Assembly: GCA_903853895.1 (NCBI GenBank)
Contig: CAINUX010000106.1
Location: 62,001-126,000 of the forward strand
Direction: 5' to 3'
DNA: 64,000 nucleotides
Source of the DNA: an uncultured beta proteobacterium
Lineage (GTDB): Bacteria > Pseudomonadota > Gammaproteobacteria > Burkholderiales > Burkholderiaceae_C
The notes under the pieces were generated by a model, which worked only from the letters and a program-made list of their open reading frames with translations, ran no database searches and was not told where the DNA came from. Every line of letters begins with the position of its first letter. Position 1 is the first letter of the stretch. Both the position numbers and the translations under genes were made by a program. This document shows positions 687 through 54,755 of the stretch, in pieces.

Positions 687-1174
687 CCCGCAAGCCCATC
701 GTGGCCGACCCCGGGTCGGCGCGGCAAGGGGGCCCGGACCGCGGTGTGGTGGACGTGGCGGTTGGGGTTTTGATGCGACCTGACGGTGATTTTCTGCTGA
801 CCTCGCGCCCTCACGGGAAGCCGTATGCAGGCTATTGGGAGTTTCCGGGTGGGAAGCTGGAGGCCGACGAAACCGTTCAACAGGCGCTGGCGCGTGAACT
901 GTTTGAGGAACTCGGGATTCAGATCGGTGCCATCCATCCCTGGAAAGTCGAAGTAGTGGACTATCCTCATGCCCTGGTGCGTCTGCACTTTTGTAAGGTC
1001 TATGAATGGTCGGGCGAATTAGAGATGCGCGAGGCGCAGTCATTTTCGTGGGAACGGCTTCCCGTGCATATGGGTCCGGTTTTGCCCGGAACGATTCCGG
1101 TATTGCTGTGGCTGGCAGAAGAATCGGAATACCAGGGCGCTACACATTTAGTAGCGGTCGAGTCAATAAAATAG
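683..1174 (+). CDS. Nudix hydrolase, MutT-like (8-oxo-dGTP pyrophosphatase candidate)
   Basis: A 163-residue protein with a complete Nudix box: GGKLEADE, then RELFEELGI, matching GX5EX7REUXEEXGU. MutT-type enzymes hydrolyse oxidised nucleoside triphosphates such as 8-oxo-dGTP to the monophosphate. The ATG at 683 is chosen because it overlaps the upstream stop (ATGA) and places the hydrophobic first strand (VDVAVGVLM) where the family expects it. The upstream frame is open but only runs through the DUF815 gene. The last eleven residues and the stop codon are encoded by a dispersed 47-bp element starting at 1139, so the original C-terminus may have been replaced. In betaproteobacteria a MutT gene commonly follows the DUF815 ATPase. 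Confidence 0.9.
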   Translation: MTRKPIVADPGSARQGGPDRGVVDVAVGVLMRPDGDFLLTSRPHGKPYAGYWEFPGGKLEADETVQQALARELFEELGIQIGAIHPWKVEVVDYPHALVRLHFCKVYEWSGELEMREAQSFSWERLPVHMGPVLPGTIPVLLWLAEESEYQGATHLVAVESIK

Positions 1175-1185
1175 AGGGCTACAGG
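1139..1185 (+). repeat. Dispersed 47-bp element, copy 1
   Basis: Left inverted repeat GCTAC-N7-GTAGC (1139-1155), a 17-nt spacer (1156-1172) and a tail reading GAGGGCTACAGG (1174-1185). It starts exactly on a codon boundary of the Nudix gene and encodes its last eleven residues (ATHLVAVESIK) and TAG stop. Spacing is identical to the other eight copies in the window. Confidence 0.8.
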
Positions 1186-1218
1186 GCGATTTAGCCAAGC
1201 CAATCGAGCTGAGTGGTG

Positions 1219-1416
1219 CTATTGGAGCGTGGCGACACTTTCATCCAGATCACCGGCCGTTACGGGCGCTGGTACCCGAAAGCTTTCACTGGCCCAAGCA
1301 CCGAAATCCATGTCCTTGCACCGTTCGCTGCAAAACGGCCGGGCAGTATTGGATACGGCATAAACACTATCTCCACCGCAGTTCGGACAGCGGACTAGGC
1401 GCGTGGTATCTGTCAT
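1219..1416 (-). CDS. yacG: DNA gyrase inhibitor YacG
   Basis: A 65-residue zinc-binding protein. The CPNCGG motif near residue 10 and [14 protein letters not shown] near residue 28 give the four cysteines (CxxC, CxxxC) of the YacG family, followed by the usual ESFRVP stretch. E. coli YacG binds GyrB and inhibits gyrase. It is the last gene of the leftward pilB-pilC-pilD-coaE-zapD-yacG run, and its start overlaps the end of zapD by 4 nt. Length and motifs are standard. The acidic C-terminal tail is variable in the family. Confidence 0.93.
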
Positions 1417-2168
1417 GAGCAGAGGGTCAACTCGAATGCACCATCCTCACTGGAGGTGTGCAGGTGATCGTCTTCCCCGTGGCGCATGAGGCGGATCGAC
1501 ACCATGAGCCGGTTCCCGCTGATTTCAGGAATCAGTCGCAACGAATCGTCCAGGGACAGTCTCAGGAGTTGAAAGGTGCGGCCCTGCGGCAAGTTTTGCT
1601 GAAACTGTCCTCCGACGGCAATGACTTTTTGGGGCGATCCCGAATCCCGCAAGAGTTTCAGAAGCAGGTGTATGGATTCGGCCAATGGCGCCAATGTCGA
1701 GGCCCAACGCTGCAAATCGGCTTGCCGCGCCGGGGTGTCCCGGTGCTGCCAGGCAAAATAGGCAGGCAGATCAAACTCACAGGTTCCCCCGGGAATGCCG
1801 ACCCGACTGCGAATGCTCATCAGCCAGTCGTTTTCCGTCAGTGCTTGCCCAGCCTTTCCGGGCTGCGCGTTGAGAGCTGCATAGCAGCGTTCCAGTTGGC
1901 GGATGATGTTGTCTAGCACGCCTTCTGCAATCGCCGGATTGCCGCGGTAGCCATTCAAAATCTGCTTTTGCTTCTCGAGGTCTTTGAGGACATCGGATTT
2001 CAGGTCTGCGCGCGCCCCCACGTCCATTACTTCAAACATGGTGGCAATCGCGAAATGGTGGTCCAGCGCATCCGCGCGGGCCATCAGTTCAGAAAGGCGA
2101 AGGAACAGGTGTTCCAAACGCAAATACGTGCGAATTCGCTCGTTGAAGGGGTATTCGTATAGGATCAC
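1413..2168 (-). CDS. zapD: Cell division protein ZapD
   Basis: This protein of 251 residues matches the ZapD (YacF, DUF1342) family, which bundles FtsZ filaments at the division ring. The N-terminus [19 protein letters not shown] is the family's most conserved segment and begins at a GTG at 2168. I prefer it to the in-frame GTG at 2219, which would add 17 residues overlapping coaE that do not resemble the family. Predominantly helical. It sits 22 nt after coaE and overlaps yacG by 4 nt, the common betaproteobacterial order coaE-zapD-yacG. Its link to pilus genes is positional only. Confidence 0.92.
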
Positions 2169-2190
2169 GCTGATTTTTCCGGTGGCCGAA

Positions 2191-2802
2191 TCATAGCCCG
2201 AACTGGGTGCCAATTTCACGCACTTGCTGCGTAAGATGGCCTAGTGCGATTCCATCGTTGAATACGACGAGGTCGGCCGATGCCAGACGTTGTTTGCGGG
2301 TGGCCTGTGCCGCGATAACCTTGCGCACTTCATCTGCGGTAAGACCATTTCTCCCCATGACACGAGCAATTTGCGTGTCTTCGGTACAGTCAATTACCAG
2401 TACGCGGCTGAGGCGTGTCCGCCAGTGTTTGGACTCCACCAATAGGGGGATATCGAAAACGATGCACGGGGTTCCGGCCTTCTCGGCCTGCTGCGCTTGT
2501 TTCGCGATCTCCAGTCCCACCAGCGGATGGACGATCGCTTCCAGGCGGGCTTTGGCCGTTGGGTCCGAATAGACCAAGCCGCGCATCTGATCGCGGTCCA
2601 ATGCGCCCGCGCTGGTGAGCATGTCAGGACCAAAAGTGCTTTTCAACGCCGCAATGGCAGGACCGCCCGGAGCAGTTGCCGCCCTGGAAATGGCATCCGC
2701 ATCAATCAATGCAGCACCCATATGTACCAGTGCCGTGGCGACTGTGCTTTTGCCACTGCCAATTCCACCGGTTAGGCCCAAGCGATGCGGAGCGATACCC
2801 AC
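2191..2802 (-). CDS. coaE: Dephospho-CoA kinase
   Basis: A 203-residue P-loop kinase that phosphorylates the 3'-hydroxyl of dephospho-CoA, the last step of coenzyme A synthesis in the cytoplasm. Walker A is GGIGSGKST at residues 11-19. Other family landmarks are the DADAISR stretch and the HPL motif (VHPLV), plus the lid region with FDIPLLVES. The GTG start at 2802 comes 2 nt after the pilD stop, so translation is probably coupled to pilD. Length is normal. The pairing with pilD is widespread in beta- and gammaproteobacteria. Confidence 0.95.
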   Translation of the reverse strand: MGIAPHRLGLTGGIGSGKSTVATALVHMGAALIDADAISRAATAPGGPAIAALKSTFGPDMLTSAGALDRDQMRGLVYSDPTAKARLEAIVHPLVGLEIAKQAQQAEKAGTPCIVFDIPLLVESKHWRTRLSRVLVIDCTEDTQIARVMGRNGLTADEVRKVIAAQATRKQRLASADLVVFNDGIALGHLTQQVREIGTQFGL

Positions 2803-2804
2803 TT

Positions 2805-3650
2805 TTACAGACCAACAGCCTGGCGCAGTGTGTCGGCGCCGAAAAACAAAGCGGTAAAACCGGCACCCGCCAGAAAAGGACCAAATGGCACATACCCGCC
2901 TTCACGCAGGCCCGTGGTGAACTTCATCGCGATGCCAACGATCGCACCAATGACCGATGCCAGCAAAATCATTGGTATCAGTGCCTGCCAACCAAACCAG
3001 GCACCCAAGGCGGCGAAGAGTTTGAAGTCGCCATATCCCATACCTTCCTTGCCAGTGACCAGTTTGAACGCCCAATACACCATCCACAGGGAAAGGTACC
3101 CACCTACGGCGCCCCACAGAGACGCATTCAGGCTGACTGGCGTCCATTTCATGGCAGCCGCAATCAGACCGAGCCATAGCAACGGCAATGTCAGGTCATC
3201 GGGCAACAGTGTGGTGTCCCAGTCAATGACTGCCAAGGCTAGTAGCGTTGCCGAGAAAGTGCACCATGCCAGTCCGGTTGCCGATGCACCCCAGCGCCAG
3301 GCGCAAAGGAAAAACAGTCCGCCACTGACAACCTCGACGACAGGGTATCGCAGGCTGATGGGGGCTTTGCATGCAGAGCAGCCTCCCCGCAGAAACACAT
3401 AGCTGATCACCGGGACATTCTCATACCAGTGGATCTGATGTCCGCAATGCGGGCAGCGCGAGCGGGGAAGCATCAAGTTAAATGGCTCTCCAACAGCTTG
3501 CGGGCTTCCGGACATTTCGGCGCACTCCGCAGCCCATTGGCGCTCCATCATCTTCGGCAAGCGGTAGATCACAACGTTGAGAAAACTGCCAATCAATAGG
3601 CCAAAGACTGCTGCAAGGGATGCCTCAAACCACTGCGGGTTCACCAGCAT
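2805..3650 (-). CDS. pilD: Type IV prepilin peptidase / N-methyltransferase PilD
   Basis: A 281-residue polytopic inner-membrane aspartyl protease that cleaves and N-methylates type IV prepilins and type II pseudopilins. The N-terminal cytoplasmic domain carries two CxxC pairs, CPHCGH and CSACKA, as in the zinc-binding methylating forms. The two catalytic aspartates are in DWDTTLLPDD and the conserved GYGDFKL motif. About seven hydrophobic segments follow. The ATG at 3650 overlaps the pilC stop as TGATG; a TTG directly upstream is less likely. It completes the pilB-pilC-pilD assembly set. Confidence 0.95.
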   Translation of the reverse strand: MLVNPQWFEASLAAVFGLLIGSFLNVVIYRLPKMMERQWAAECAEMSGSPQAVGEPFNLMLPRSRCPHCGHQIHWYENVPVISYVFLRGGCSACKAPISLRYPVVEVVSGGLFFLCAWRWGASATGLAWCTFSATLLALAVIDWDTTLLPDDLTLPLLWLGLIAAAMKWTPVSLNASLWGAVGGYLSLWMVYWAFKLVTGKEGMGYGDFKLFAALGAWFGWQALIPMILLASVIGAIVGIAMKFTTGLREGGYVPFGPFLAGAGFTALFFGADTLRQAVGL

Positions 3651-4867: not shown

Positions 4868-4888
4868 AGTTTTCCTCTGAATTCTTTG

Positions 4889-6622: not shown

Positions 6623-6778
6623 GAACCGATAAGAATATGCGTTACGTAAAAGACTGGTGCATCATCGCTGATTGCGCCACCAATGTAAATCAATTGGGAA
6701 CAATGTTACCTTGGTGCGTCCCAGAGCGTTGGCTGCCTGTCATACTCTTGTTTCCATCCACGTTTCAGAGTCTGTTAC

Positions 6779-8212: not shown

Positions 8213-8220
8213 CTGATGAA

Positions 8221-11186: not shown

Positions 11187-11190
11187 ATTT

Positions 11191-11237
11191 ACTATAAAAA
11201 TAGTAGCTGTCTACGCAATGCGGGCGGGGGCTACTGG
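11191..11237 (+). repeat. Dispersed 47-bp element, copy 2 (intergenic)
   Basis: Left inverted repeat ACTAT-N7-GTAGC (11191-11207), a 17-nt spacer with CGCA in the YGYA position, and a diverged tail CGGGGGCTACTGG. It nearly fills the 56-bp obgE-proB gap. AGTAGC and GCTACT within it can also pair over a longer distance. Confidence 0.7.
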
Positions 11238-11242
11238 CTCAT

Positions 11243-12379
11243 ATGGCAAACATGTCTAGTTCTTCCGTGCTGCGCGACGCGCGGCGTATTGTGGTCAAGG
11301 TGGGCTCCAGCCTGGTGACCAATGATGGCCGCGGCCTGGACGAAGCGGCCATCGGCGAATGGTGTCGCCAGATGGCGCAACTGATGCGCGATGGACGCGA
11401 AGTCATCATGGTTTCCAGCGGTGCCATTGCCGAGGGCATGAAGCGCCTGGGCTGGACGGTTCGCCCCAAGGCGATTCAGGAACTGCAGGCCGCCGCCGCT
11501 GTCGGGCAAATGGGCTTGGCGCAAATGTACGAGACCAAGCTCAAGCTGAACGGCCTGGGCAGCGCGCAGGTCTTGCTGACCCATGCCGACCTGGCCGACC
11601 GGGAGCGCTACCTCAACGCCCGCTCCACGCTGCTGACCCTGCTCAAACTGGGGGTCGTGCCTGTCATCAACGAAAACGACACGGTGGTCAACGACGAGAT
11701 CAAGTTTGGTGACAACGACACGCTGGGTGCGCTGGTGGCCAACTTGGTGGAAGCCGATGCGCTGGTGATCCTGACCGACCAGAAGGGGCTCTTCACCGCC
11801 GATCCCCGCAAAGCCCCCAATGCCGAGTTCGTGCATGAAGCCCGCGCGGGTGATGCCTCGCTGGAGGCCATGGCCGGCGGTGCTGGCTCCAGCCTAGGGC
11901 GCGGCGGCATGATCACCAAGATTTTGGCCGCCAAGCGTGCGGCGGGCTCGGGCGCATCCACCGTAATCGCCTGGGGCCGGGAGCCCGATGCATTGATTCG
12001 CTTGACCCAAGGAGAGGCCATTGGCACCCTGCTGGTGGCGCAAACCCAGAAAAATCAGGCGCGCAAACAGTGGATGGCGGACCACTTGCAACTGCGCGGC
12101 GCGGTCGTGGTGGACGCGGGTGCAGTCGTCAAAGTGCGTGACCAGGGAAAAAGCCTGCTACCGGTCGGGATGGTGCTGGTGGAGGGGGACTTTTCACGCG
12201 GTGACGTGATCGCGTTGCGTGACGAGCGCGGTGTCGAATTTGCCCGGGGTCTGGCCAATTATTCGAGTTCCGAGGCGCGGCTACTGTGCCGCAGGCCTTC
12301 TGCCGATATCGAAAAACTGTTGGGCTATGCCGCGGAGCCCGAGATGCTTCACCGAGACAACCTGGTGCTGACCCGATAA
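11243..12379 (+). CDS. proB: Glutamate 5-kinase
   Basis: A 378-residue first enzyme of proline biosynthesis, making gamma-glutamyl phosphate. The amino acid kinase domain (about 1-260) opens with [14 protein letters not shown] and contains the family segments [17 protein letters not shown] and [14 protein letters not shown]-terminal PUA domain (about 280-360) is present, as in E. coli. ATG at 11243. The 47-bp element ends 6 nt upstream of the start, so the ribosome-binding region lies inside or next to repeat sequence (no strong Shine-Dalgarno is visible). Confidence 0.96.
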
Positions 12380-15355: not shown

Positions 15356-16011
15356 CGCCTGCCACGGCTCCGTTGGGCGCCCGCGTTACACGAAGAATCT
15401 GCCTCCTGCCCTCGTTGGTAGGTCTTGGGTTGCTATCGATTCAGGAGCATTCCTGGGCCGGCGCGCAAATTGAGGAGCCCATAGCCGACGCGGTTCGAAA
15501 CGCAATGCGTGCGTCCGTCCATAGTGACGCACCACCTGAACCGGTCTTTCCGTCTACGGAGTCGCGGTTGCACTACTTGCGCTGGAAGATTGAGATGAAC
15601 AAGCGGCTGATCAGCCGCAGAACCGACCTCAGAACTTTCCAGGAAAGAGATGAGTTTCTTCAGTCAGTTTGGTACAACAGCAAACGAACGCGACTCGACG
15701 TGGATTTGGTCTTGGGATTGATCCAGGTTGAAAGCAATTTCCGAAAAAGAGCCATTAGCTCTGTGGGAGCCCGTGGCTACATGCAAGTCATGCCCTTTTG
15801 GATGCGCCTGCTGGGCGAAGGCGACGTTGCCAAGTTGTTCAACATGCAAACCAATTTGCGCTTTGGCTGCGTGATTTTGCGACACTACCTCGATAGGGAA
15901 AACGGCGACCTGTTCTTGGCCTTGGGGCGATACAACGGCTCGCGGGGAAAACCACAGTACCCGGATGCTGTCTTTGCCAACAAACGGTTGTGGGAGTTTG
16001 TCGTCAAGTAA
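15352..16011 (+). CDS. Lytic transglycosylase, SLT domain
   Basis: A 219-residue exported murein-cleaving enzyme. The N-terminus (residues 1-36) is a signal peptide with basic residues and a hydrophobic stretch [12 protein letters not shown] ending near SWAGA. The SLT catalytic domain spans about 110-205. It contains [16 protein letters not shown], with the catalytic Glu in VESNF, then [13 protein letters not shown] and the RYNGSRG substrate-site motif. It overlaps proS by 4 nt; this proS-SLT pairing recurs in Burkholderiales. A 17-bp half-match to the dispersed element lies in the signal-peptide region at 15432. Exact substrate preference is unknown. Confidence 0.88.
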
Positions 16012-16207
16012 GTCATTTGGCACTACTTCCTTTGGCGGGATCCGTTGGGCTGCACGTATTTCTGCGTGTCCCCCGCCCGCTGTGCGGGCTCCTCCAGCGC
16101 ATAACACCCACGCCGTGCCTGCTGCGTGCGCGCGAAGTGCCAGCTGTGTGCGAGATACGCACCGTCAGTCAAGCGAGCGAAGTGTTCCAACTCCGCAGAC
16201 AAATAAC

Positions 16208-19302: not shown

Positions 19303-19349
19303 GCTATTGAATCAGTAGCTATAAGCGTATATTTTACGAGGGCCAACGG
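19303..19349 (+). repeat. Dispersed 47-bp element, copy 3 (overlaps prmC end)
   Basis: Left inverted repeat GCTAT-N7-GTAGC (19303-19319), a 17-nt spacer containing CGTA, and tail CGAGGGCCAACGG (19337-19349). Read on the minus strand, the tail and spacer edge encode the last residues (WPS) and TAA stop of PrmC. Confidence 0.8.
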
Positions 19350-20218
19350 CCGCCACTGCAACGTTCAACGCCGGCCAGGTCACGCCGGGATTGTGCATCC
19401 GCAAAGCCTGCGTCCGCCAGCAGCGCGCGCACGGCAGAGGCCTGGTCGTAGCCGTGTTCCAGTAACAGCCAGCCACCGGGCTGCAGATGGCGGCCCGCCT
19501 GGGCAATGATGGTGCCGATATCGTCCAGCCCGTGGTCGCCGCTGGCCAGTGCCTGCCGGGGTTCGTGGGTCAACGCCGCCAGATGCGGATCAAGCGCTGC
19601 GATGTAGGGCGGGTTGGAGACGATCAGGTCAAAGCAGCCCTGCACGCCGTCCAGCCAGTTGCCTTGCGCAAACCGGACCTTGAGATGCAGACGTAGGGCG
19701 TTGGCTTGTGCCACCGTCAGTGCGTCGGTGCTGTAGTCGATCGCCAGTACTTGCAGGTCGGGGCGGCTGTGTTGGAGCGCTAAGGCGATGGCGCCGCTGC
19801 CGGTGCCTAAATCGAGGACGCGGGTGGGCTTGGTGTGCGGCTCAGTCGTTGTAGAGGTGCTCGCAGTCGTTGGAGCGATGGCTAACACCTCCAGCGCCCA
19901 GTCCACCAGCGTCTCGGTATCAGGCCGGGGCACCAGAACACGGCCGTCCACACAAAGGTCCAGCCCGTAAAACGCTTTGTGGCCGGTGATATAGGCCAGC
20001 GGTTCACCCGCGGCACGACGACGCACGGTGGCCTGCAGCGTGGCGTGGGCGGCGTCGGGCAGGGCGTCGGTGTCGTGCGCCAGCAGCCAGGCGCGTTCCA
20101 TGTCCGTGCGGCCTACTGCGTGCAGTACCAGCAGTTGCGCGTCGAGCCGGTCCAAGCCCTGGGTCTGGGCCCATCCCATGGCCTGGGCGATGGTGGAGGG
20201 TGTTTGCGGGGTTCCCAT
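19334..20218 (-). CDS. prmC: Release factor glutamine methyltransferase PrmC
   Basis: A 294-residue SAM-dependent enzyme that N5-methylates the glutamine of the GGQ motif in release factors. The N-terminal helical domain (1-75) is followed by the methyltransferase fold. It has the SAM motif VLDLGTGSGAIALAL, and the catalytic motif NPPY in VSNPPYIAALDPHL. It lies downstream of prfA (its substrate gene) on the same strand, the usual pairing. The two are separated here by one 47-bp element, and another supplies the PrmC stop codon. Confidence 0.95.
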   Translation of the reverse strand: MGTPQTPSTIAQAMGWAQTQGLDRLDAQLLVLHAVGRTDMERAWLLAHDTDALPDAAHATLQATVRRRAAGEPLAYITGHKAFYGLDLCVDGRVLVPRPDTETLVDWALEVLAIAPTTASTSTTTEPHTKPTRVLDLGTGSGAIALALQHSRPDLQVLAIDYSTDALTVAQANALRLHLKVRFAQGNWLDGVQGCFDLIVSNPPYIAALDPHLAALTHEPRQALASGDHGLDDIGTIIAQAGRHLQPGGWLLLEHGYDQASAVRALLADAGFADAQSRRDLAGVERCSGGRWPS

Positions 20219-20220: not shown

Positions 20221-20267
20221 GCTATTGAATTGGTAGCTGCATACGTAGTATCTACGAGGGCTAGAGG
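20221..20267 (+). repeat. Dispersed 47-bp element, copy 4 (prfA-prmC gap)
   Basis: Left inverted repeat GCTAT-N7-GTAGC (20221-20237), a 17-nt spacer with CGTA, and a perfect tail CGAGGGCTAGAGG (20255-20267). It begins 2 nt beyond the prmC start codon and occupies most of the 59-bp gap between prfA and prmC. Confidence 0.85.
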
Positions 20268-20277
20268 TCTAAAATGC

Positions 20278-21375: not shown

Positions 21376-21457
21376 AGGTAAGCAATCTGAATGACGAGCA
21401 ACGCGACGACCGTAAGGCCCTAGCCGAAGCGAAATAACAAAATGTGGCTGTTTGGCT

Positions 21458-21485
21458 CCCCTCTCGCCCGGCGGGGCGAGAGGGG
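21458..21485. repeat. GC-rich perfect hairpin (hemA-prfA gap)
   Basis: A 12-bp perfect inverted repeat, CCCCTCTCGCCC with GGGCGAGAGGGG, around a 4-nt loop, followed by TTGGGGGAGAGTGGGG. This type of CCCTCTC-GGGAGAGGG(TTGGGG) sequence is commonly dispersed in proteobacterial genomes. There is no T run on the minus strand, so it is not a typical intrinsic terminator for hemA. Confidence 0.6.
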
Positions 21486-21511
21486 TTGGGGGAGAGTGGG
21501 GGCTACCCCAG

Positions 21512-22844: not shown

Positions 22845-23120
22845 ATGGGCCCTTTGGACCAACTCTATCACCTGGCCAATTTCCTGGCGCCCGCGATTGT
22901 CGTGGGGTTGTTGCTGGCCCTGGCTGGCCCACTTTTTAACAAAAATAGCCCTGTAGCCCTCGGATTCATTGTGCAAGCAGCTATTAATTGTATAGCTGGC
23001 GCAATGGCGCTTGGAATCGGTCTTTGGTTTTTTGGTCGTGATGGCAAGATGGCGAGTTACGCGGCCTTGCTGGTCTTTGCGGTCACCAGCCAGTGGGTCG
23101 GCGGGCGCGGGTGGCGTTGA
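22845..23120 (+). CDS. Small hypothetical membrane protein with repeat-derived core
   Basis: A 91-residue protein with two or three hydrophobic stretches: APAIVVGLLLALAGPL (15-30), ALGFIVQAAINCIAGAMALG (38-57), and one near the C-terminus. Residues 36-51 are encoded by a 47-bp element in inverse orientation, which therefore supplies much of the second hydrophobic stretch. It is divergent from hemA. No family is recognised. The composition (hydrophobic N-terminus after a short amphipathic start, basic GRDGK loop) is consistent with a real inner-membrane protein, but expression is unproven. Confidence 0.6.
   Translation: MGPLDQLYHLANFLAPAIVVGLLLALAGPLFNKNSPVALGFIVQAAINCIAGAMALGIGLWFFGRDGKMASYAALLVFAVTSQWVGGRGWR
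22950..22996 (-). repeat. Dispersed 47-bp element, copy 5 (inside a small ORF)
   Basis: On the minus strand: inverted repeat GCTAT-N7-ATAGC (22996-22980), a 17-nt spacer with CACA in the YGYA position, and tail CGAGGGCTACAGG (22962-22950). The tail variant CTACAGG is shared with copy 1 at 1139. It lies wholly within the small membrane-protein gene. Confidence 0.8.
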
Positions 23121-24754: not shown

Positions 24755-25564
24755 ATCAACCCGGTCTGTGATGATGCCGTCGGTTCCCAGGTCGATGAGG
24801 CGCAGCGCCGCCCATTCGTCGTTGACGGTATAGCTAAGGGTACGAAAGCCGGCACTGCGGGCTTGAGTGACGGTGCTGTGGTCCCACAGGGCATGGTTGC
24901 AGACAATGGCACGGCAGTCCAGGGTAAGTGCGGTCTCCAGCCAACCGCTCCACAGCGTGTCGAGCAGAAGGCCGCGTGGCAGTTCGGGCGCGGTGTCCAG
25001 GGCGCCGCGCAGGGCGCCGGGTTCAAAGGAGGTCAGCAGCGGCGGCACGGCTTGGCCGGCCCACAGGCGGGCGGCCATTGACGCCACGACCTTCCCGGTC
25101 TGTAGTTCGGTGCCGGGTGTGGGTTTGATCTCGATGTTCAGAAAATAGCTGTTGCGGATGCAAAAGGCCGCGATGGCATCCAATGTAGGCAACGGCTCGC
25201 CCGCAAAGGCGCGGCTGTGCCAGCTTCCCGCATCAAGTTGTGCAAGCCGGCCCCAGGGCCAGTCTCCACCGACCAAACTGACGGAAGTTGCTACTGAATC
25301 AGGAGCGATATGTGTAGATTGAACGAGGGCTAGAGGCACTTTTAATGCATTGGTAGTGCGCTGAAGGGTAGCGTCGTGCATTAGAAAAGGCACGCCGTCG
25401 GCGCTGAGCTTCACATCGCATTCGAACATGCGGTAGCCGTGGTTGGCGCCTACGCGGAAGGCGGCCAACGTGTTCTCAGGAGCAAGTTTGCCTGCGCCCC
25501 GGTGGGCGATCCAACGGGGATAGGGCCACGCCGGCAGGTCGGGGGCCAGGGCGTCGTCGCTCAT
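24740..25564 (-). CDS. ugpQ: Glycerophosphodiester phosphodiesterase UgpQ
   Basis: A 274-residue GDPD-family enzyme that hydrolyses glycerophosphodiesters to glycerol-3-phosphate and an alcohol. Motifs seen are the [16 protein letters not shown] start (residues 21-36), the metal-binding [11 protein letters not shown], and [10 protein letters not shown], then LDAGSW and NIEIKP. Between RTTN and DAGSW there are 38 residues, where E. coli UgpQ, as I recall it, has about 16. Residues 77-92 in that insertion are encoded by a 47-bp element. It is last in the ugpB-A-E-C-Q operon, with an ATGA overlap with ugpC. Confidence 0.92.
25290..25336 (+). repeat. Dispersed 47-bp element, copy 6 (inside ugpQ)
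   Basis: Left inverted repeat GCTAC-N7-GGAGC (25290-25306, one arm base changed), a 17-nt spacer with TGTA, and a perfect tail CGAGGGCTAGAGG (25324-25336). It lies antisense within the ugpQ coding sequence and is translated as residues 77-92 ([16 protein letters not shown]). Confidence 0.85.
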
Positions 25565-29793: not shown

Positions 29794-30008
29794 GGGGACT
29801 CCTGTAAAAAATGCCAGATCGTAGTCAGGCTTTGTGTCAGCGCCATTAAACGTGATCCGGCGTGGTGTGGCGCTTGGTAATTTCCATTAGAGGCGTCGCC
29901 CCAGCCGAGCTTGCCACTCCCGGGGGTAGGTGTTTGCTGCACTGCGGTAACATCTTCCCTCTGCCCCAGCGGCCCCAAAAGCTGCCAAGACCGCCACTGT
30001 ACCGTCCG

Positions 30009-33000
30009 ATGAACGCACCCACTTCGCTCAACCACCTCCTGTCTGCGCCCGGCATCCAGCCGCATGTGCACGAACGCATCCGCGAAATTCCGTACAACTA
30101 CACCTCGTTTTCTGACCGCGAAATCGTGATCCGTTTGCTGGGTGCGCGTGCCTGGGGCCTTCTCAACCAGTTGCGGGGTGAGCGGCGTACCGGCCGTTCG
30201 GCCCGCATGCTGTACGAAGTGCTGGGCGACATCTGGGTGGTGCAGCGCAACCCCTATTTGCAGGACGACCTGCTGGACAACCCCAAACGGCGTGCGCAAC
30301 TGGTAGAAGCCTTGCACCACCGCCTGCAGGAAGTGGAAAAACGCCGTACCCCCCAGGTGGACTCTGAGCGCGACGCTATGGTCGGCGAATTGCTTGCGGC
30401 AGCGAGTGCTGCAGTCGAAGCCTTTGATGCCGCGTCGGTCGAAGTGGGCGTGCTGCGCCGCAAGACCCAGCGCGCGCTAGTCAAGCTGACGGCCAAGGAC
30501 AACATTAAATTTGACGGTCTGTCACGCGTGTCGCACGTGACGGATGCCACTGACTGGCGCGTGGAGTACCCGTTTGTGGTGCTGACACCCGATTCCGAGG
30601 AAGAGATGGCCGGTCTGGTCAAGGGCTGTATCGACCTGGGCCTGACCATCATCCCGCGCGGCGGCGGCACCGGCTATACCGGAGGCGCCATTCCGTTGAC
30701 CTGGAAGTCGGCGGTCATCAACACCGAAAAGCTCGAAGCCATGACCGAGGTGGAGATGCGCACCCTGCCCGGCATGGACCGCGAAGTGGCGACGGTGTGG
30801 ACCGAAGCCGGCGTGGTGACCCAGCGGGTGGCCGATGCGGCCGAGCGCGGTGGCTATGTGTTTGCGGTGGACCCCACGTCCGCGGAGGCCTCCTGCATTG
30901 GTGGCAATATCGCCATGAATGCCGGTGGCAAGAAGGCCGTGCTGTGGGGCACGGCGCTGGACAATCTGGCCAGCTGGCGCATGGTGACACCGCAGGCCGA
31001 ATGGCTCGAAGTGACCCGTATTCACCACAACATGGGCAAGATCCACGACGCCGAGTCGGCGACGTTCGAGCTGCAGTATTTCAAGGCCGATGGCAAGACC
31101 CGGCTGCGCACCGAGCAGCTGGTCATACCCGGCAAGTCCTTCCGCAAGGAAGGTCTGGGCAAGGATGTAACGGACAAGTTCCTGAGTGGCTTGCCCGGCA
31201 TTCAGAAGGAGGGCTGTGATGGCCTGATTACCAGCGCACGATGGGTGGTGCACCAGATGCCGGCCCACACGCGCACGGTGTGCCTGGAGTTTTTTGGCAA
31301 TGCCAAGGACGCGGTGCCCAGCATCGTGGAAATCATCGACTTCATGTTTGCCGAGCAAAAGCGCACAGGCGTGTTGCTCGCTGGCCTGGAGCACCTGGAT
31401 GATCGCTACCTGAAAGCGGTCGGTTATGCCACCAAGAGCAAACGCGGTGGCCTGCCCAAGATGGCGTTGTTTGGCGATATCGCCGGCGATGATGCCGACG
31501 CTGTGGCCCGCGCCACGTCTGAGGTGGTGCGTATTGCCAATTCGCGCAGTGGTGAAGGGTTCGTCGCCATCAGTCCCGAGGCGCGCAAGAAATTCTGGCT
31601 GGACCGCAAGCGAACGGCCGCCATCTCGCGCCACACCAACGCCTTCAAGATCAATGAGGACGTCGTCATTCCGCTGCCCCGCATGGCCGAGTACACCGAC
31701 GGCATCGAGCGCATCAACATTGAACTGAGTCTGCGCAACAAGCTGGCCTTTTGCGATGCCTTGGCCGATTTTTTTGCGGCCGGAAGCTTGCCGTTGGGAA
31801 AAACCGATGACGCCAACGACATTCCAGCGGCCGAGCTGCTGGAAGACCGCGTGGCCCAGGCGCTGACCCTGATTGGGCAGGTGCGCCAGCAGTGGCAGGC
31901 CTGGCTCGACGGCGTGGAAGGCCTGTTCCCGCAGTTGCAGGACCATAGCCTGCGTGCCAGCTGGAAGACCCAGCTGCGCGCGCCGCTGCAGGCCATCTTC
32001 ACCGGTGGCGCGTTCGAAGCCATCCTGGCCGAATGCAACGCCATCCACCAGCGCGTGCTCAAAGGCAGGGTCTGGGTGGCTTTGCACATGCACGCCGGTG
32101 ACGGCAATGTGCACACCAACATTCCCGTCAACAGTGACGACTACGACATGCTGCAGGCCGCCCACGGTGCAGTCAAACGTATCATGGCGCTGGCACGCTC
32201 GCTGGACGGCGTGATCTCGGGTGAGCACGGCATTGGCATCACGAAGCTGGAGTTTCTGACCGACGAAGAGCTGCGTCCCTTCACGGAGTACAAGGCCAAG
32301 GTCGATCCCGAGGGTCGTTTCAACAAGGGCAAACTGCTACGAAATATAGAGCAGAATACGCAGCATGCACGAGGGCTAGAGTCCAATACGGCTCAAGGTT
32401 TCCCGGCGCACGCCGATCTGACCGATGCCTACACGCCATCCTTTGGCCTAATGGGTCACGAGTCGCTGATCATGCAGCAAAGCGACATCGGCGCCATTGC
32501 CGATTCGGTGAAGGACTGCCTGCGCTGCGGCAAGTGCAAGCCGGTGTGCGCCACCCATGTGCCGCGCGCCAACCTGCTGTACAGCCCACGCAACAAGATT
32601 CTGGCGACGTCCCTGCTGGTGGAAGCCTTCCTGTACGAAGAGCAGACGCGCCGGGGCATCAGCATCAAGCACTGGGAAGAGTTTGAAGACGTGGCCGACC
32701 ATTGCACGGTCTGCCACAAGTGCCTGTCGCCCTGCCCGGTGAAGATTGATTTTGGCGACGTGACTATGAACATGCGCAACCTGTTGCGCAAGATGGGCAA
32801 GAAATCCTGGCGCCCGGCGGCGGAGTTCCAGGCCTGGTTTATTGGAACCGCCAGCCCCAACGCCATTGCGATTGCCCGGACCGCCACGCGCCTGAGCTTC
32901 AAAGCACAGCGTCTGGGCAACCGGGTGCTCAAGGTGCTGGCCCGTAAGCAAACACAAGCCCCGCCTGCCACGGTTGGAACGGCATCGGTCAAAGAGCAGG

Positions 33001-33929
33001 TGGTTCACTTCATCAACAAGAAAATGCCAGGGAACCTGCCCAAGCGCTCGGCCCGTGCGTTGCTCGATATTGAAGACAAAGACTACGTGCCCATCATTCG
33101 CAACCCGAAAACCACGACCTCTGAGACGGAGGCCGTGTTCTATTTCCCCGGTTGCGGTTCTGAGCGACTATTCAGCCAGGTGGGTCTGGCGACGCAGGCC
33201 ATGCTCTGGCACGCGGGCGTGCAAACCGTGTTGCCACCGGGCTACCTTTGCTGCGGCTATCCGCAGCGCGGCTCGGGGCAGTTTGACAAGGCCGAAAAAA
33301 TCATCACCGACAACCGGGTACTGTTCCATCGTGTGGCCAATACGCTGAACTACCTGGACATCAAGACCGTGGTGGTGAGCTGCGGAACCTGCTATGACCA
33401 GCTGCAGGGTTACGAGTTCGACAAGATCTTTCCGGGGTGCCGCATCATCGACATCCACGAGTATTTGCTGGAGAAAAACATCACTTTGCCGTCCGGACAA
33501 GGGGGGTTCCTGTACCACGAACCGTGTCACAGCCCACTGAAGCTGCAGGAGCCGATGAAGACCGTGCGGGCCCTGGTTGGCGACAACGTGGTCGAGAGCA
33601 AACGTTGCTGCGGGGAGAGTGGCGGTTTGGCGTCGTCGCGTCCTGATGTGTCGACCCAGATCCGCTTTCGCAAGGAAGAGGAAATTCGCAAGGGCGAAGC
33701 TGCTCTGCGCCAAGCCGGCACGGTGCAGGCCGAGCAGAACGTCAAGATTCTGACCTCTTGCCCGAGTTGCCTGATGGGCCTGAACCGTTACCAGGACGAT
33801 TTGAAATCAGGCCTGCTGGAAGCGGACTACATCGTCGTCGAGATGGCCAATCAGATTCTGGGCGCCGACTGGTTGCCGCAATACGTCCAGACGGCCAACG
33901 CGGGCGGCATCGAACGGGTGTTGGTATAA
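30009..33929 (+). CDS. DUF3683 FAD-linked oxidase / Fe-S / CCG fusion oxidoreductase
   Basis: A very large (1306-residue) protein. An N-terminal DUF3683 region (1-180) precedes an FAD-binding oxidase domain of the GlcD / D-lactate dehydrogenase type, with [17 protein letters not shown] (near 215) and [13 protein letters not shown] (near 740). Two [4Fe-4S] motifs follow: [11 protein letters not shown] (from residue 837) and [12 protein letters not shown] (from 899). Two CCG-type cysteine-rich domains come next ([21 protein letters not shown], then HEPCHS and CCGESGG). It combines in one chain what GlcD, GlcE and GlcF do separately, so a flavin 2-hydroxyacid dehydrogenase feeding quinone is likely. 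The substrate is not known. ATG 30009 is chosen. A 47-bp element encodes residues 776-792 in the linker. Confidence 0.9.
32336..32382 (+). repeat. Dispersed 47-bp element, copy 7 (inside DUF3683 gene)
   Basis: Diverged left arm GCTAC-N7-AGAGC (32336-32352), a 17-nt spacer with CGCA, and tail CGAGGGCTAGAGT (32370-32382). It is translated in the forward frame within the linker between the FAD domain and the first Fe-S motif. Confidence 0.75.
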
Positions 33930-41381: not shown

Positions 41382-41382
41382 C

Positions 41383-42637: not shown

Positions 42638-43848
42638 CGGTACCCCAGTTCAAAGAGGGGAACCACATTCGCCTTCTGAAAGGGGGCGGGGAATTCTTCC
42701 CATCGCTGATCCAGGCGATTGATGCCAGTGTGCAGGAAGTGCGGCTGGAAACCTATATTTTTTACTTTGACGATGTAGGAGAGCGGGTTTGCACCGCGCT
42801 GGAACGTGCCGGCCTGCGCGGCGTGAACGTCTATCTGGTGATGGACGGTATTGGTACGCCCAGCATTCCCGATGCCTGGATTCAGCGTTTTTTGGATGCC
42901 GGCGTGCACTGGCACCGGTTTTCGCCGCTGGGGCGATGGGGGCTTTTGATGCCAGTCGGCTGGCGGCGATTGCATCGCAAGCTGTGTGTGGTGGATGCAC
43001 AACTGGTTTTTTGCGGTGGCATCAACATTCTGGACGACTACGTTGATCCCACCTATGGGGCCCTCGAATCACCACGGTTTGATTTTGCGGTGTCGGTCCA
43101 AGGACCTTTGGTGATAGATGCCCACCGTGCGATGGTCCAGTTTTGGGATCGCTTGCAGATCACCCGCCAGCTGGAACGCATGCAGTTCCAAGGCGCGCGC
43201 CAGACCTGGAAGGACTCCAGGCTATCCGCGCACTTGTTGCCGCCTGCCGACCCTGAGCCAGGGGGGAGGTCTGGCATCCGGGCCATGCTGGTCCTGCGGG
43301 ACAACCTGCGCAACCGCAACCGCATCGAGCGCGCCTACCGCAAAGCGATTGCGGATGCACGCCAGGAAGTGCTGATTGCCAGCGCCTACTTTCTGCCGGG
43401 TGCCAAATTACGGCGCTCGCTGATCCACGCCGCCCGCCGGGGGGTTCGGGTGCGGTTATTGCTGCAGGGGCACTATGAGTATTTCATGCAGTACCACGGA
43501 GCCCGGCCGGTTTTTGGCGCGTTGCTGGCCGCGGGGGTCGAGATCCACGAATATTCTGCGGGCTTTTTGCACGCCAAGGTTGCTGTCGTGGACGGGCGCT
43601 GGGCGACGGTGGGTTCGTCGAATCTGGACCCCTTGAGTCTGCTGCTGGCGCGTGAGGCTAATGTGATCGTTAGCGATGTACCCTTTGCACAGGAACTGCG
43701 TGCGTGTCTGGTGGCCGCCATGGAGTCGCATGGGGTGCAACTTGATGCGCAGGCCTACGCGCAGCGCCCGTGGCGGCAGCGCCTTCTGGACGGAGTGGCC
43801 TTTGGTGTCATGCGTCTCTTGCTGTTTCTGGCTGGGCGACGCTATTGA
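42634..43848 (+). CDS. clsB: Cardiolipin synthase ClsB-type (phospholipase D family)
   Basis: A 404-residue phospholipase D-superfamily enzyme joining phosphatidyl groups to make cardiolipin. It has two HKD motifs: HRKLCVVDAQLVFCGGIN (near residue 115) and HAKVAVVDGRWATVGSSNLD (near 312). There are no N-terminal membrane segments, as in ClsB. The TTG at 42634 overlaps the upstream stop (TTGA) and has AGAGAG upstream; no ATG fits. The C-terminal hydrophobic stretch ends GRRY, where the stop codon lies inside a 47-bp element beginning at 43841. Confidence 0.92.
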   Translation: MTVPQFKEGNHIRLLKGGGEFFPSLIQAIDASVQEVRLETYIFYFDDVGERVCTALERAGLRGVNVYLVMDGIGTPSIPDAWIQRFLDAGVHWHRFSPLGRWGLLMPVGWRRLHRKLCVVDAQLVFCGGINILDDYVDPTYGALESPRFDFAVSVQGPLVIDAHRAMVQFWDRLQITRQLERMQFQGARQTWKDSRLSAHLLPPADPEPGGRSGIRAMLVLRDNLRNRNRIERAYRKAIADARQEVLIASAYFLPGAKLRRSLIHAARRGVRVRLLLQGHYEYFMQYHGARPVFGALLAAGVEIHEYSAGFLHAKVAVVDGRWATVGSSNLDPLSLLLAREANVIVSDVPFAQELRACLVAAMESHGVQLDAQAYAQRPWRQRLLDGVAFGVMRLLLFLAGRRY

Positions 43849-43887
43849 AATGATAGCTATCCGTGCAATTCCCGCGAGGGCTAGAGA
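43841..43887 (+). repeat. Dispersed 47-bp element, copy 8 (clsB end / folE upstream)
   Basis: A perfect left arm GCTAT-N7-ATAGC (43841-43857), a 17-nt spacer with TGCA, and tail CGAGGGCTAGAGA (43875-43887). The TGA at 43846-43848 within its left arm ends clsB. The rest lies in the 78-bp clsB-folE gap. Confidence 0.85.
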
Positions 43888-43926
43888 CCAAAAACCCTAT
43901 TGGGAAAAGGCTGGTAGTATTCCAGT

Positions 43927-48458: not shown

Positions 48459-48526
48459 GGTTGGTGTCGAAGTTCAGCTGGTAAAGCATAACAGGAAGTG
48501 GTGGCATGTTGTCACGGAATGAGGCA

Positions 48527-48549: not shown

Positions 48550-48571
48550 CTTTGCCAAGCACTTTTGACGC

Positions 48572-50257: not shown

Positions 50258-50276
50258 AGGCAGCGCGAACTCGTTG

Positions 50277-51038
50277 CTAGGTGCGTCGATGTGCGGCACC
50301 ACACACCGGACAATCTGGGTTGCGGGGCAGTCGAATGTCGCTCCAGGTCATATTGCGACCGTCCAGCATCAGCAATCGTCCAACGGCGGGCTCTCCCGCG
50401 CCGCTGAGCAATTTGAGCGCCTCAGCGGCCTGCATACTGCCAATGATGCCCACCAGCGGCGCAAATACCCCCATCGTGGCGCAGCGCGTTTCTTCAAATG
50501 CGGCGTCTGGCGGGAATACGCAGGCATAGCAAGGCGATTGGCCGTCATTGGGGTCATAGACCGCCAGTTGGCCATCAAACCGGATGGCCGCGCCCGAGAC
50601 CAGCGGCACGCCGTGGCGCACACAGGCGGTGTTCAACGCGTGTCGGGTGGCAAAATTGTCACTGCAGTCGAGCACGACATCAGCTTGTGCCACGAGGATA
50701 TCGAGGCGTGCGGAGTCAGCCCGTTCGGCTAGAGCGGTGATCTGCAGGCCAAGATTGAGGCCCAGGAGGGTCGCGCGTGCGGACTCTACCTTGGCCGTAC
50801 CTACCCGCGCTTCGGTGTGCGCAATCTGGCGTTGCAGGTTGGTCACGTCTACGGTGTCGTGGTCCACCAGGGTCAGGTTGCCGACGCCTGCGGTGGCCAG
50901 ATACATGGCGGCCGGTGACCCTAATCCGCCAACGCCGATGATCAGCGCCCGCGCCTGCATGATGCGTTCTTGGCCCTCGACGCCCACCTCATTGAGCAGG
51001 ATGTGGCGCGAGTAGCGCAGCAACTCCGAATCATTCAT
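50277..51038 (-). CDS. moeB: MoeB/ThiF-family adenylyltransferase
   Basis: A 253-residue E1-like enzyme that adenylates the C-terminal glycine of a small sulfur carrier (MoaD for molybdopterin or ThiS for thiamine). The nucleotide site has RALIIGVGGLGSPAAMYLA, and the conserved D130-type aspartate is in VVLDCSDNFATRHALN. A zinc site is formed by CYAC and CPVC. No rhodanese domain is fused. MoeB and ThiF are hard to tell apart by sequence, and no moa or thi genes are nearby. It is between ctpA and sulP on the same strand. Confidence 0.87.
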   Translation of the reverse strand: MNDSELLRYSRHILLNEVGVEGQERIMQARALIIGVGGLGSPAAMYLATAGVGNLTLVDHDTVDVTNLQRQIAHTEARVGTAKVESARATLLGLNLGLQITALAERADSARLDILVAQADVVLDCSDNFATRHALNTACVRHGVPLVSGAAIRFDGQLAVYDPNDGQSPCYACVFPPDAAFEETRCATMGVFAPLVGIIGSMQAAEALKLLSGAGEPAVGRLLMLDGRNMTWSDIRLPRNPDCPVCGAAHRRT

Positions 51039-51067
51039 GCGAAATCACCAACGTCGGGACCATGTCC

Positions 51068-52504: not shown

Positions 52505-52589
52505 AAGTATTCCAGTGCCGCCTCAATATACACCTTGGAGGTGGTAGCTTGCAGCGAGTTCCCTTAGTTGACGGTAGGTTCCGACGTTT

Positions 52590-53333
52590 TCAGGCTTTGC
52601 CTTGGGACGCAACGGCTGCGGCAGCCTTGGCGGCCGCTTCGGCATCGCCCAGGTAGTAGTGGCGAATCGGTTTCAAGTTGGCGTCCAACTCATACACCAG
52701 CGGAATGCCATTGGGAATGTTGAGCCCGACGATGTCGCTGTCCGAGACGTTGTCCAGGTATTTGACCAGCGCACGAATCGAGTTTCCGTGGGCCGCGATG
52801 AGCACGCGCTTGCCGCTTTGAATGGTGGGCGCAATGGACTCGCTCCAGAATGGCATGACGCGGGCTACGGTGTCCTTGAGGCATTCGGTCAATGGGACCT
52901 GGCCAGGCTGTAAATTGGCGTAGCGTATATCGGCGCGTTCGCTGCGGGCGTCGGTGGGCTCCAGAGCGGGAGGCGGGGTGTCGTAGCTGCGGCGCCACTG
53001 CAGGACCTGGGCGTCGCCATATTGCTTGGCTACTTCGGTCTTGTTCAGACCCTGGAGCGCGCCGTAATGGCGTTCATTGAGTCGCCAGGAGTGCACCACC
53101 GGTAGCCATGTTCGGTCCATTTCATCCAGGCAGTGCCACAACGTGCGGGTGGCGCGTTTCAGAACACTGGTGTAGGCAAGGTCGAATTCATAGCCATCAG
53201 CTTTCAGTAAACGGCCGGCTTCCTTGGCCTGTTCCACGCCGGTGGGGGTCAGGTCGACGTCGGTCCAGCCGGTGAAGCGGTTGTCAAGATTCCAGGTGGA
53301 TTCGCCGTGGCGAACGAGAACGAGTTTGTACAT
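52590..53333 (-). CDS. gpmA: 2,3-bisphosphoglycerate-dependent phosphoglycerate mutase
   Basis: A 247-residue glycolytic enzyme interconverting 3- and 2-phosphoglycerate. The phosphohistidine motif [18 protein letters not shown] is at residues 6-23, and the second active-site His is in [24 protein letters not shown] is conserved too. The C-terminus is Ala-rich. It is divergent from the rhodanese-grxC-secB run, as commonly seen in Burkholderiales, with a 102-bp shared upstream region. Confidence 0.97.
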
Positions 53334-53435
53334 GGTGCGGGGGCTGGGGCTGAGGGAGAGTCAGGGTCTTGGGCAGGGAAACAGCCACCATTCTAAAATG
53401 GCGGACTGAATGGTTGGTAACTAACAAGGAACAAA

Positions 53436-53843
53436 GTGAAATTCATTTTTGATAACTGGATGCTGATTGCGATTGCCATGGCTTCGGGTTCGCTACTTTT
53501 GTGGCCCGTCCTGCAGGGCGCCGCTATGGCAGGTTTGGACCCGGCAGGGGCGGTTCAGCTGATCAACCGGGAGAAAGGCGTGGTCATTGACGTGTGTGAG
53601 CCGGGTGAGTTTGCTGCTGGTCACGTGGGAGGCGCCAGGAATATTCCCTTGGGTGAACTGGAGAGCAAACTGGCCGGGGCGGTAAAAAACAAGGCCTTGC
53701 CCGTGATTCTGGTCTGCCAGTCCGGAGCCCGTTCGGGACGCGCGGTGGCGATTGCAAAAAAGCTGGGGTACGAACAGGCCCAATCCCTGGGCGGCGGCCT
53801 GGCCAGTTGGCGCGCCGCAAACCTTCCCGTTGAAAAAGGTTGA
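53436..53843 (+). CDS. Membrane-anchored rhodanese-like protein
   Basis: A 135-residue protein with an N-terminal membrane segment (WMLIAIAMASGSLLLWPVL) and a single rhodanese domain. The active-site loop is CQSGARSGRA, with a Cys at the catalytic position. The GTG at 53436 is supported by AAGGA (53425-53429). It is followed after 4 nt by grxC and then secB, an arrangement also seen in gammaproteobacteria (yibN-grxC-secB), so YibN-like. Sulfur transferase activity is likely but the acceptor is unknown. Confidence 0.92.
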   Translation: MKFIFDNWMLIAIAMASGSLLLWPVLQGAAMAGLDPAGAVQLINREKGVVIDVCEPGEFAAGHVGGARNIPLGELESKLAGAVKNKALPVILVCQSGARSGRAVAIAKKLGYEQAQSLGGGLASWRAANLPVEKG

Positions 53844-53847
53844 TGCC

Positions 53848-54108
53848 GTGCAAACCGTCAAGATGTACACCACCGCGGTTTGCCCGTATTGCGTGCAGGC
53901 AAAACGCCTTCTCCTGTCCAAAGGCGTAGGGCATATTGAAGAAATTCGCGTCGACAGTCAGCCGCAAGAACGGATGAAGATGATGGAAATGACGGGTCGG
54001 CGTACCGTGCCGCAAATCTTCATCGGCTCGACGCATGTCGGTGGGTGTGACGACCTGATGGCGCTGGACAGCCAAGGTGGTTTGTTGCCCCTGCTCAATG
54101 CGGCTTGA
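53848..54108 (+). CDS. grxC: Glutaredoxin 3
   Basis: An 86-residue dithiol glutaredoxin with active site CPYC (TTAVCPYCVQAKRLL), the cis-proline in RRTVPQIFIGSTHVGG, and CDDLMALDSQG at the glutathione site. The GTG at 53848 gives the family start VQTVKMYTT; an ATG five codons later is an alternative. It sits between the rhodanese and secB, and a terminator hairpin follows 65 nt after its stop. Confidence 0.93.
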   Translation: MQTVKMYTTAVCPYCVQAKRLLLSKGVGHIEEIRVDSQPQERMKMMEMTGRRTVPQIFIGSTHVGGCDDLMALDSQGGLLPLLNAA

Positions 54109-54173
54109 ACAGGCTGAAGATTTGGCCCCTTCGAGCCTGAGATAATCCGCGTTTAACGAAATTCCCGTTATTT

Positions 54174-54207
54174 GCCCGCCCCGATTTTTTGGGGCGGGCA
54201 TTGTTTT
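54174..54207 (+). terminator. Rho-independent terminator between grxC and secB
   Basis: A 9-bp perfect stem GCCCGCCCC / GGGGCGGGC with an 8-nt loop GATTTTTT, followed by ATTGTTTT. The secB ATG is only 20 nt further, so some readthrough or a promoter close to the hairpin is needed for secB. Confidence 0.8.
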
Positions 54208-54226
54208 ACTTAGAAAGACTGTTTTT

Positions 54227-54691
54227 ATGTCAGACCAGACTCCTGTTTTCCAGATTCAGCGCGTGTACCTCAAAGAGGCGTCGCTCGAGCAACCCAATTC
54301 CCCCGCCATTCTGCTGGAGCAGGAGCAGCCCACCGTGGACATTCAGCTGGGCGTTGAGGCTGCCCCCGTGGCTGAAGGTGTATTTGAAGTCGCCGTTACG
54401 GCAACCGTTCACACCAAAATCAAGGACAAGACGGTGTTCCTGGTGGAAGCCAAGCAGGCCGGCATTTTTGAAATCCGCAATGTGCCAGACGACCAAATGG
54501 GTCAGCTCATGGGTATTGCTTGCCCGCAAATCGTCTATCCCTATCTGCGTGGCAATGTGGCGGACCTGATCCAGCGCGGTGGCTTCCCACCAGTGCACCT
54601 GTCGGAAATCAACTTCCAGGCCATGTACGAACAACAGCAACTGGCACAAGCACAGGCTGCTGCTGCACCAGCCGACGCACTGCCACAATAA
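54227..54691 (+). CDS. secB: Protein-export chaperone SecB
   Basis: A 154-residue tetrameric cytoplasmic chaperone that keeps preproteins unfolded and delivers them to SecA. The [19 protein letters not shown] start and the [35 protein letters not shown] stretch (given in part) are hallmark SecB blocks. The C-terminus is Gln/Ala-rich. The upstream order rhodanese-grxC-secB and downstream gpsA is the classic secB neighbourhood. No strong Shine-Dalgarno is visible ahead of the ATG. Confidence 0.96.
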
Positions 54692-54708
54692 GTATCTGGG
54701 CATTTCGC

Positions 54709-54755
54709 CCTCTAGCCCTCGTATCCATTGACTATGATGCTATGAAAATTATAGT
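54709..54755 (-). repeat. Dispersed 47-bp element, copy 9 (carries gpsA start codon)
   Basis: On the minus strand: arm ACTAT-N7-ATAGC (54755-54739), a 17-nt spacer with GTCA, and a perfect tail CGAGGGCTAGAGG (54721-54709). The ATG of gpsA (54742-54744) and codons 2-4 plus most of codon 5 lie inside the left arm, and the remainder replaces the usual leader. Confidence 0.85.

Follow-up and report, generated by a model that had tools for sequence, protein, structure and literature searches.

The closest described counterpart of the element reported here is a pair of short motifs from a 2017 survey of spaced motifs (PMC5217627), ATAGCT(N)22CAAAAG, which occurs in Polaromonas naphthalenivorans CJ2 with 125 copies, 101 of them intergenic and 34 between convergent genes. 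The genome richest in motif pairs in that survey is that of Rhodoferax ferrireducens, and Acidovorax ebreus carries 114 copies of a second pair, GCTTAT(N)5AAGCG. The main text of the survey offers no mechanism for either pair and none was found in the literature searched. Transformation in Verminephrobacter and Acidovorax, members of the same family (Comamonadaceae), is DNA-selective, with no signal named in the portion of the report covered (PMC4212676); Verminephrobacter eiseniae and Acidovorax temperans are competent species. In Neisseria, the covered portion of PMC2397512 describes uptake sequences as arising by same-place recombination and as rare in acquired DNA. Here we describe a dispersed DNA motif of fixed geometry in a stretch of 64,000 nucleotides from an uncultured beta proteobacterium (assembly GCA_903853895.1, contig CAINUX010000106.1, positions 62,001 to 126,000), referred to as the window. 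Hundreds of copies of this motif lie on the chromosomes of these freshwater bacteria, some of them inside essential genes.

A first reading of the window from its letters alone (the sequence-only reading) had pointed to similar strings in Comamonadaceae and to the lack of a formal description. The first statement holds, while the second needs one correction in view of the closely similar pair in PMC5217627. A text search of the literature for GGGCTAGAGG returned, among the matches listed, titles that look unrelated, and the family and genus names do not occur in PMC6006769 or PMC3733652.

Results

The nine copies of the sequence-only reading were recovered at their coordinates and form an ungapped alignment of 47 nt. 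A tenth copy at 15395-15448 on the minus strand, with a profile score of 36, was missing from that list. The proposed unit length of 47 bp proved too short, since conservation spans about -3 to +54 and continues, weakly, as far as about +67 (97 copies), which gives a motif of at least 54 bp and up to about 70 bp. Its layout is a 17-bp dyad composed of two GCTAY half-sites around an AT-rich, TpA-poor centre, followed at fixed spacing by the non-palindromic block ACGAGGGCTAGMGGCCNATTT, with a tail that terminates in a TTT run. Positions with at least 75% A/T in runs of at least three fall at 8-10, 29-31 and 51-54, so that roughly two helical turns separate them (166 copies). The strict pattern GCTAY-N7-RTAGC holds in five of the nine copies; the other four begin with ACTAY (11191 and 54709) or end in GGAGC or AGAGC (25290 and 32336). 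These last two variants replace RTAGC and remove an in-frame TAG in some frames, and coding constraint may have moulded the motif there.

The source genome (4.69 Mb in 292 contigs), which a single protein places nearest to Rhodoferax and other Comamonadaceae among named relatives, contains 347 matches to GCTAYN7RTAGC against 46 to a reversed control pattern. A 58-column profile, applied to 865,544 bases of this genome at a threshold of 14, found 119 copies, 64 and 55 on the two strands, where the best score in an order-3 Markov control of equal size was 7.7. The resulting density of about one copy per 7.3 kb agrees with the one per 7 kb first estimated from the window. In all 37 palindromes with GRGGGCTA within 40 nt, the distance between palindrome and GRGGGCTA is identical, and the palindrome loop measures 7 nt in 13 of 14 cases, the remaining one, of 20 nt, being chance-like. 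Variable internal length and chance-level counts had been named at the outset as grounds for giving the element up. Instead, the geometry is fixed and over-representation lies far beyond chance on both strands.

Structure or protein contact had both been proposed for the motif, and only the latter has fared well. Across 244 copies drawn from several genomes, covariation between the arms is lacking: Watson-Crick cells number 117 for pair 5-13 (122.6 expected under independence), 168 for pair 4-14 (169.8 expected) and 90 for pair 8-10 (124.2 expected), the last deficit arising because the dyad centre avoids TpA steps. Arm pairing also remains within shuffle range in a 61-sequence alignment. As a working hairpin should covary, the hairpin reading was dropped. 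The left half-site and the reverse-complemented right half-site share a near-identical 9-position profile and vary independently of each other. Judged from these alignments, the motif is probably not a hairpin, and its dyad appears to behave as a duplex-DNA site of a dimeric protein. Given that in-gene copies of the source genome run 22 along and 21 against transcription, the motif is hardly read as RNA. At gathering thresholds Rfam gives no match over any window copy.

Copies are conserved in place. Twenty of them could be positioned through both flanks in G063, a relative with about 87% identical DNA, and 16 have a copy at the same place; four places are without one, one of these across a 2-kb gap. 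Orthologous pairs were counted at a score of at least 15, and the three unscored sites are clearly negative, so borderline losses are few. Within the 16 pairs, conserved columns are identical in 476 of 528 comparisons (90.2%) and variable columns in 166 of 240 (69.2%; p 2e-12), and the GCTA and TAGC bases are unchanged in every pair by eye count. The copies of one genome, by comparison, are nearly unlinked in sequence. Among 116 from the source genome the closest pair is 71.8% identical over 71 columns, against a column-shuffle mean maximum of 70.4%, and 50 copies from the complete genome G059 likewise include no pair closer than column shuffles over the whole body. The motif hardly looks copied and is nothing like a family of recent copies, which accords with the early preference for protein contact over recent duplication.

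Whether copies inside genes were inserted or arose by change in place was addressed by comparing 12 of them with relatives or solved homologues. Pfam domain matches were obtained in all nine in-gene open reading frames (ORFs) tested. Five of the 12 copies leave the length of the surrounding stretch unchanged: an acyl-CoA-synthetase-like gene has two of them, and dnaE, a homologue of fused isobutyryl-CoA mutase and a hydantoinase-type gene have one each. In the acyl-CoA-synthetase-like gene, site A has 8 of 9 motif-poor rows of exactly equal length over the compared stretch and site B 6 of 10, with the remainder within 15 bp, and the peptide over the copy is still recognisable as the old one, for example DATKRVAIQAYSTRAG as against DAASRIALRSYADGAL. 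Four further copies show a slight length difference, namely one residue in aminopeptidase N, three residues at a second hydantoinase site, seven residues in a mercuric-reductase-like gene and, at a second dnaE site, a linker of varying length. Change in place appears from these comparisons to be the commoner pattern in this small set, while unit insertion may be real at some sites.

Placement was determined for 117 copies with a home-made gene caller, which is approximate (coding fraction 0.84). Forty-three copies lie inside genes, 40 in tandem gaps, 22 in convergent gaps, seven in divergent gaps and five at edges. Since gaps of at least 50 bp number 231 tandem, 43 convergent and 85 divergent, divergent gaps are under-used. 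The distance to a gene 3' end is at most 20 nt in 40 of 84 cases. Sense copies inside genes favour one frame (16 of 22), by our own reading the only stop-free frame of the consensus, and antisense copies also favour one (16 of 21). Copies are at least 404 bp apart and show neither regular spacing nor clustering along contigs (coefficient of variation 0.87 against 0.93 simulated). A bias relative to replication strand, which the sequence-only reading had listed for testing, is not apparent by eye against GC skew in 420 kb of G059 (21 stretches, 50 copies). The last codons of a 1619-codon gltB-type ORF overlap a motif copy (L006:5823-5880).

Within the genus, copy number is bimodal. No match was found in 25 of 61 genomes, and another 25 stand at or near the upper value of at least 91 copies, counted among the matches listed. 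Some motif-poor genomes are large (G043, 5.2 Mb; G018, 3.9 Mb). The motif is nearly absent from two conjugative megaplasmids, which together hold one copy in 600 kb: the R. ferrireducens plasmid gave no match in 250 kb, and pPNAP01 has a single copy, at 186066, in 350 kb. A joint search of plasmid and G059 chromosome sequence, 400 kb of each, gave 46 matches, all of them chromosomal and one weak and partial; full-length matches had a GC content of 0.31-0.57.

The sequence-only reading had also listed for testing the presence of a transposase of the RAYT type (REP-associated tyrosine transposase, REP denoting repetitive extragenic palindromic sequences). One Y1_Tnp gene is present in the source genome (C106:20242-20946; 234 codons, with HxH and NPVRAG motifs by eye), about 41 kb left of the window and immediately upstream of a gltB-type gene. 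The stop codon of the Y1_Tnp gene falls within a motif copy whose left arm is replaced. In G000 the right-part motif copy stands at the 3' end of the RAYT gene only, and the gene start overlaps an upstream ORF. The RAYT 3' flank carries the right part of the motif in the same orientation in many relatives, and minus-strand 3' flanks from 80 named relatives reach a mean score of 0.03, against -18.8 when shuffled and -16.4 on the forward strand. Flank score follows copy number within the genus (Spearman 0.83; 54 genomes, with copy counts up to at least 91), and the anchored flank motif occurs in all 20 genomes that have 89 or more copies and in none of the 31 that have at most 12. RAYT itself was found in 57 of 61 genus genomes. 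A full RAYT was not found in seven of the 61, of which five are motif-rich, most of these rich ones being incomplete. The rich or poor label changes only about four times on the RAYT tree. Among 40 genomes reached via named loci, which judged by title lie mostly outside the genus, 6 of the 17 rich ones (at least 61 copies) have the flank motif, as do 3 of the 8 intermediate and 4 of the 15 poor ones (at most 3). What stands of the transposase lead is a single-copy gene whose 3' end bears part of the motif; the link to copy number is confined to the genus and weak outside it. In our reading the motif copy at RAYT is probably one old site at a gene end, and it does not prove that the transposase is cognate. 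The RAYT region (L006:242-1060, L080-L159) is itself bordered by GGGGTCAGATTCCAATTA-type sequence, which many relatives have on either side, and GGGACAYATCAAA adjoins the motif part.

Two accounts built on transposition were set aside. RAYT and REP as a full explanation was demoted on three grounds: the arms do not covary, some in-gene copies are gapless and the association failed outside the genus. In the IS608 family, target choice follows a guide/target mechanism, and a model of this kind with GCTAY as target and RTAGC as guide had been made attractive by the left arm lying over old coding sequence at the window 32336 site. It predicts insertions and is contradicted by the gapless copies.

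In the window, motif positions 1-54 of the copies are as follows. On the plus strand, copy 1 (1139-1192) is a profile match with an orthologue in G063, as is the added copy on the minus strand (15395-15448). Copy 2 (11191-11244, plus) almost fills the gap between obg and proB (11187-11242). Copies 3 and 4 (19303-19356 and 20221-20274, both plus) lie at the prmC 3' end and in the prmC-prfA gap, which the latter occupies; obg-proB and prmC-prfA spacer lengths vary widely among motif-poor genomes. Copies 5 (22943-22996) and 9 (54702-54755) are minus-strand profile matches, and copy 6 (25290-25343, plus) has no counterpart at the matching place in G063. Copy 7 (32336-32389, plus) falls in the interdomain linker of a gene for an FAD-oxidase/4Fe-4S protein (29862-33929). 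The same protein linker in two sister genomes, at L269 and L273 (G046 and G057), contains a GC-rich repeat of the CCCCCTTGGGGGGCAGCG...GGAGCGTGGGGG type, at a guess an element like BRE, the Beta-proteobacterial repeat element. Copy 8 (43841-43894, plus) stands at the end of a PLD-family gene, ahead of a folE-like gene for GTP cyclohydrolase I. The short window segments 21398-21506 and 16046-16125 have many dispersed matches in sister genomes, with identity of up to 100% across 50 bp; some of these matches form inverted pairs spaced by about 300 bp. Both segments belong to other repeat families.

Discussion

Our results suggest a model in which each copy of the motif would serve as a signal to a duplex-reading protein, which would recognise the 17-bp dyad and the ACGAGGGCTAGMGGCCNATTT block at fixed spacing. 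Copies would have spread over the chromosome largely through change in place, by substitution or short recombination, and would be kept by selection or drive. They would settle where disturbance is small, that is at gene 3' ends, in convergent gaps and in permissive coding stretches read in stop-free frames. The most likely reader would be the DNA-uptake machinery of natural transformation, with molecular drive spreading the motif. Three steps of this model are inferred: a protein as reader of the motif, change in place as the main origin of copies, and DNA uptake as the process to which that reader belongs. An uptake-sequence-like signal spread by molecular drive is the leading reading, held tentatively and at somewhat less than an even chance. 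It is favoured because DNA-selective transformation has been published for Verminephrobacter and Acidovorax and because the copies prefer harmless places. In its boldest form, the proposal is of a bipartite uptake sequence of 55-70 bp outside Neisseriaceae and Pasteurellaceae, read as duplex by the transformation pilus of Comamonadaceae, which by molecular drive would rewrite even dnaE coding sequence and would differ between lineages as dialects. This is conceivable, though we think it doubtful.

Several observations weigh against an uptake signal. At more than 50 bp the motif is far longer than known uptake sequences, and conservation extends over at least 54 bp in place of a short core of 9-12 bp. 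ComEC is present in 55 of 61 genus genomes irrespective of motif content, and was not found in G037, a motif-rich genome of 99% completeness with at least 91 copies. Plasmid and chromosome figures were taken from different species. Copy spacing is random. Three of the 12 in-gene copies show a length difference close to the size of the motif itself, the outcome expected of unit insertion: the methionine synthase copy differs by 19 residues from one solved homologue, a copy in an aminopeptidase N family protein by 18 residues from another, and the window 32336 site is 54 bp shorter in 4 of 16 relatives, with other lengths elsewhere. The spread of pairwise identity among copies also exceeds all 300 column shuffles, and the closest pair over the 17-nt spacer reaches 0.94 against 0.83 shuffled (p 0.007) in the source genome and 0.88 against 0.76 (p 0.02) in G059. 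Some common descent, or else subtypes, must therefore exist among the copies.

Three other explanations compete with the uptake signal. The motif could be where a chromosome-organising or global DNA-binding protein attaches, such as a nucleoid or domain protein, with ordinary selection keeping each site and uptake playing no part. The duplex dimer-site profile, conservation in place, chromosomal rather than plasmid location, random orientation and the missing link to ComEC would all suit such a protein, yet the copies are neither evenly spaced nor clustered (0.87 against 0.93 simulated), their placement avoids disturbance instead of following a chromosomal plan, and no candidate protein was found, all of which leaves this explanation rather unlikely. 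The copies could also be old elements like REPs or miniature inverted-repeat transposable elements (MITEs), inserted as whole units through the action of the single RAYT, some of them becoming fixed as functional sites afterwards. This would account for the three in-gene sites that differ by 54-57 bp, for the excess similarity in the spacer, for a RAYT gene whose 3' flank shares the right part of the motif in the same orientation in many relatives, and for the correlation between flank score and copy number in the genus (Spearman 0.83; flank motif in 20 of 20 rich and 0 of 31 poor genomes). However, that contrast of rich and poor needs only about four changes on the RAYT tree, and outside the genus it shrinks to 6 of 17 against 4 of 15; five rich genus genomes, most of them incomplete, yielded no full RAYT. 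With no arm pairing, gapless in-gene copies and no near-identical copies besides, we consider an origin from mobile units improbable.

RNA-level elements at mRNA 3' ends, whether terminators or processing signals, would be consistent with the 40 of 84 distances of at most 20 nt to a gene 3' end and with the TTT run that ends the tail. The lack of a pairing constraint, the even split of in-gene copies into 22 sense and 21 antisense and the lack of an Rfam match over a window copy at gathering thresholds make them very improbable indeed.

Should the motif prove to be an uptake signal, it would explain the published DNA selectivity of Comamonadaceae transformation and represent a very different solution to the recognition of own DNA. 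Should it instead mark a chromosome-protein site, it predicts a global binding protein with about 640 sites per genome, as extrapolated from 119 copies. Either way, a long DNA signal overlies conserved protein sequence, including the gene of the DNA polymerase III alpha subunit, and a genome-level constraint on proteins is therefore directly testable with one DNA fragment.

Comparison with described systems places the motif between several of them. The uptake sequences of Neisseriaceae and Pasteurellaceae, DNA uptake sequences (DUS) and uptake signal sequences (USS), resemble it as hundreds of degenerate duplex signals that occur in genes and gaps and are conserved in place, and their rarity in acquired DNA may be shared by the motif, but they measure 9-12 bp, with short flanks in USS, where the present motif spans 54-70 bp and includes a dyad. 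Rickettsia palindromic elements are palindrome-bearing units read in frame inside proteins; they are insertions, whereas 5 of the 12 in-gene copies tested here are gapless. BRE, as described in the covered portion of PMC3110155, is also dispersed in Bordetella and Comamonadaceae and lies inside some genes. The motif is set apart from it by description, BRE being 75-91 bp long in Bordetella, about 69% GC and often tandem, while motif copies have a GC content of 0.31-0.57 and lie at least 404 bp apart. REP and RAYT systems, to the extent that PMC2817692 was covered, share with the motif hundreds of copies, a palindrome, gene-end location and a RAYT gene beside part of the motif. REPs have a GT(A/G)G head and a GC-rich complementary palindrome maintained by complementary mutations, in contrast to a consensus without head, with a 5-bp arm that tolerates mismatches and pairing within shuffles. 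Two inverted REPs flank rayt, whereas RAYT is flanked here on one side only, by a partial copy; and REPs occur in many identical copies, whereas the closest pair of 116 is 71.8% identical. The nearest likeness is the ATAGCT(N)22CAAAAG pair, which has the same arm ATAGCT and the same spacing, its second half falling at motif positions 41-46 (consensus CTAGMG). As given in the main text of PMC5217627, it is a pair established by statistics, which lacks the left arm and the full unit and comes with no account of evolution or mechanism. By letters and spacing this pair probably belongs to the same family as the motif described here, and GCTTAT(N)5AAGCG of A. ebreus may be one of its dialects.

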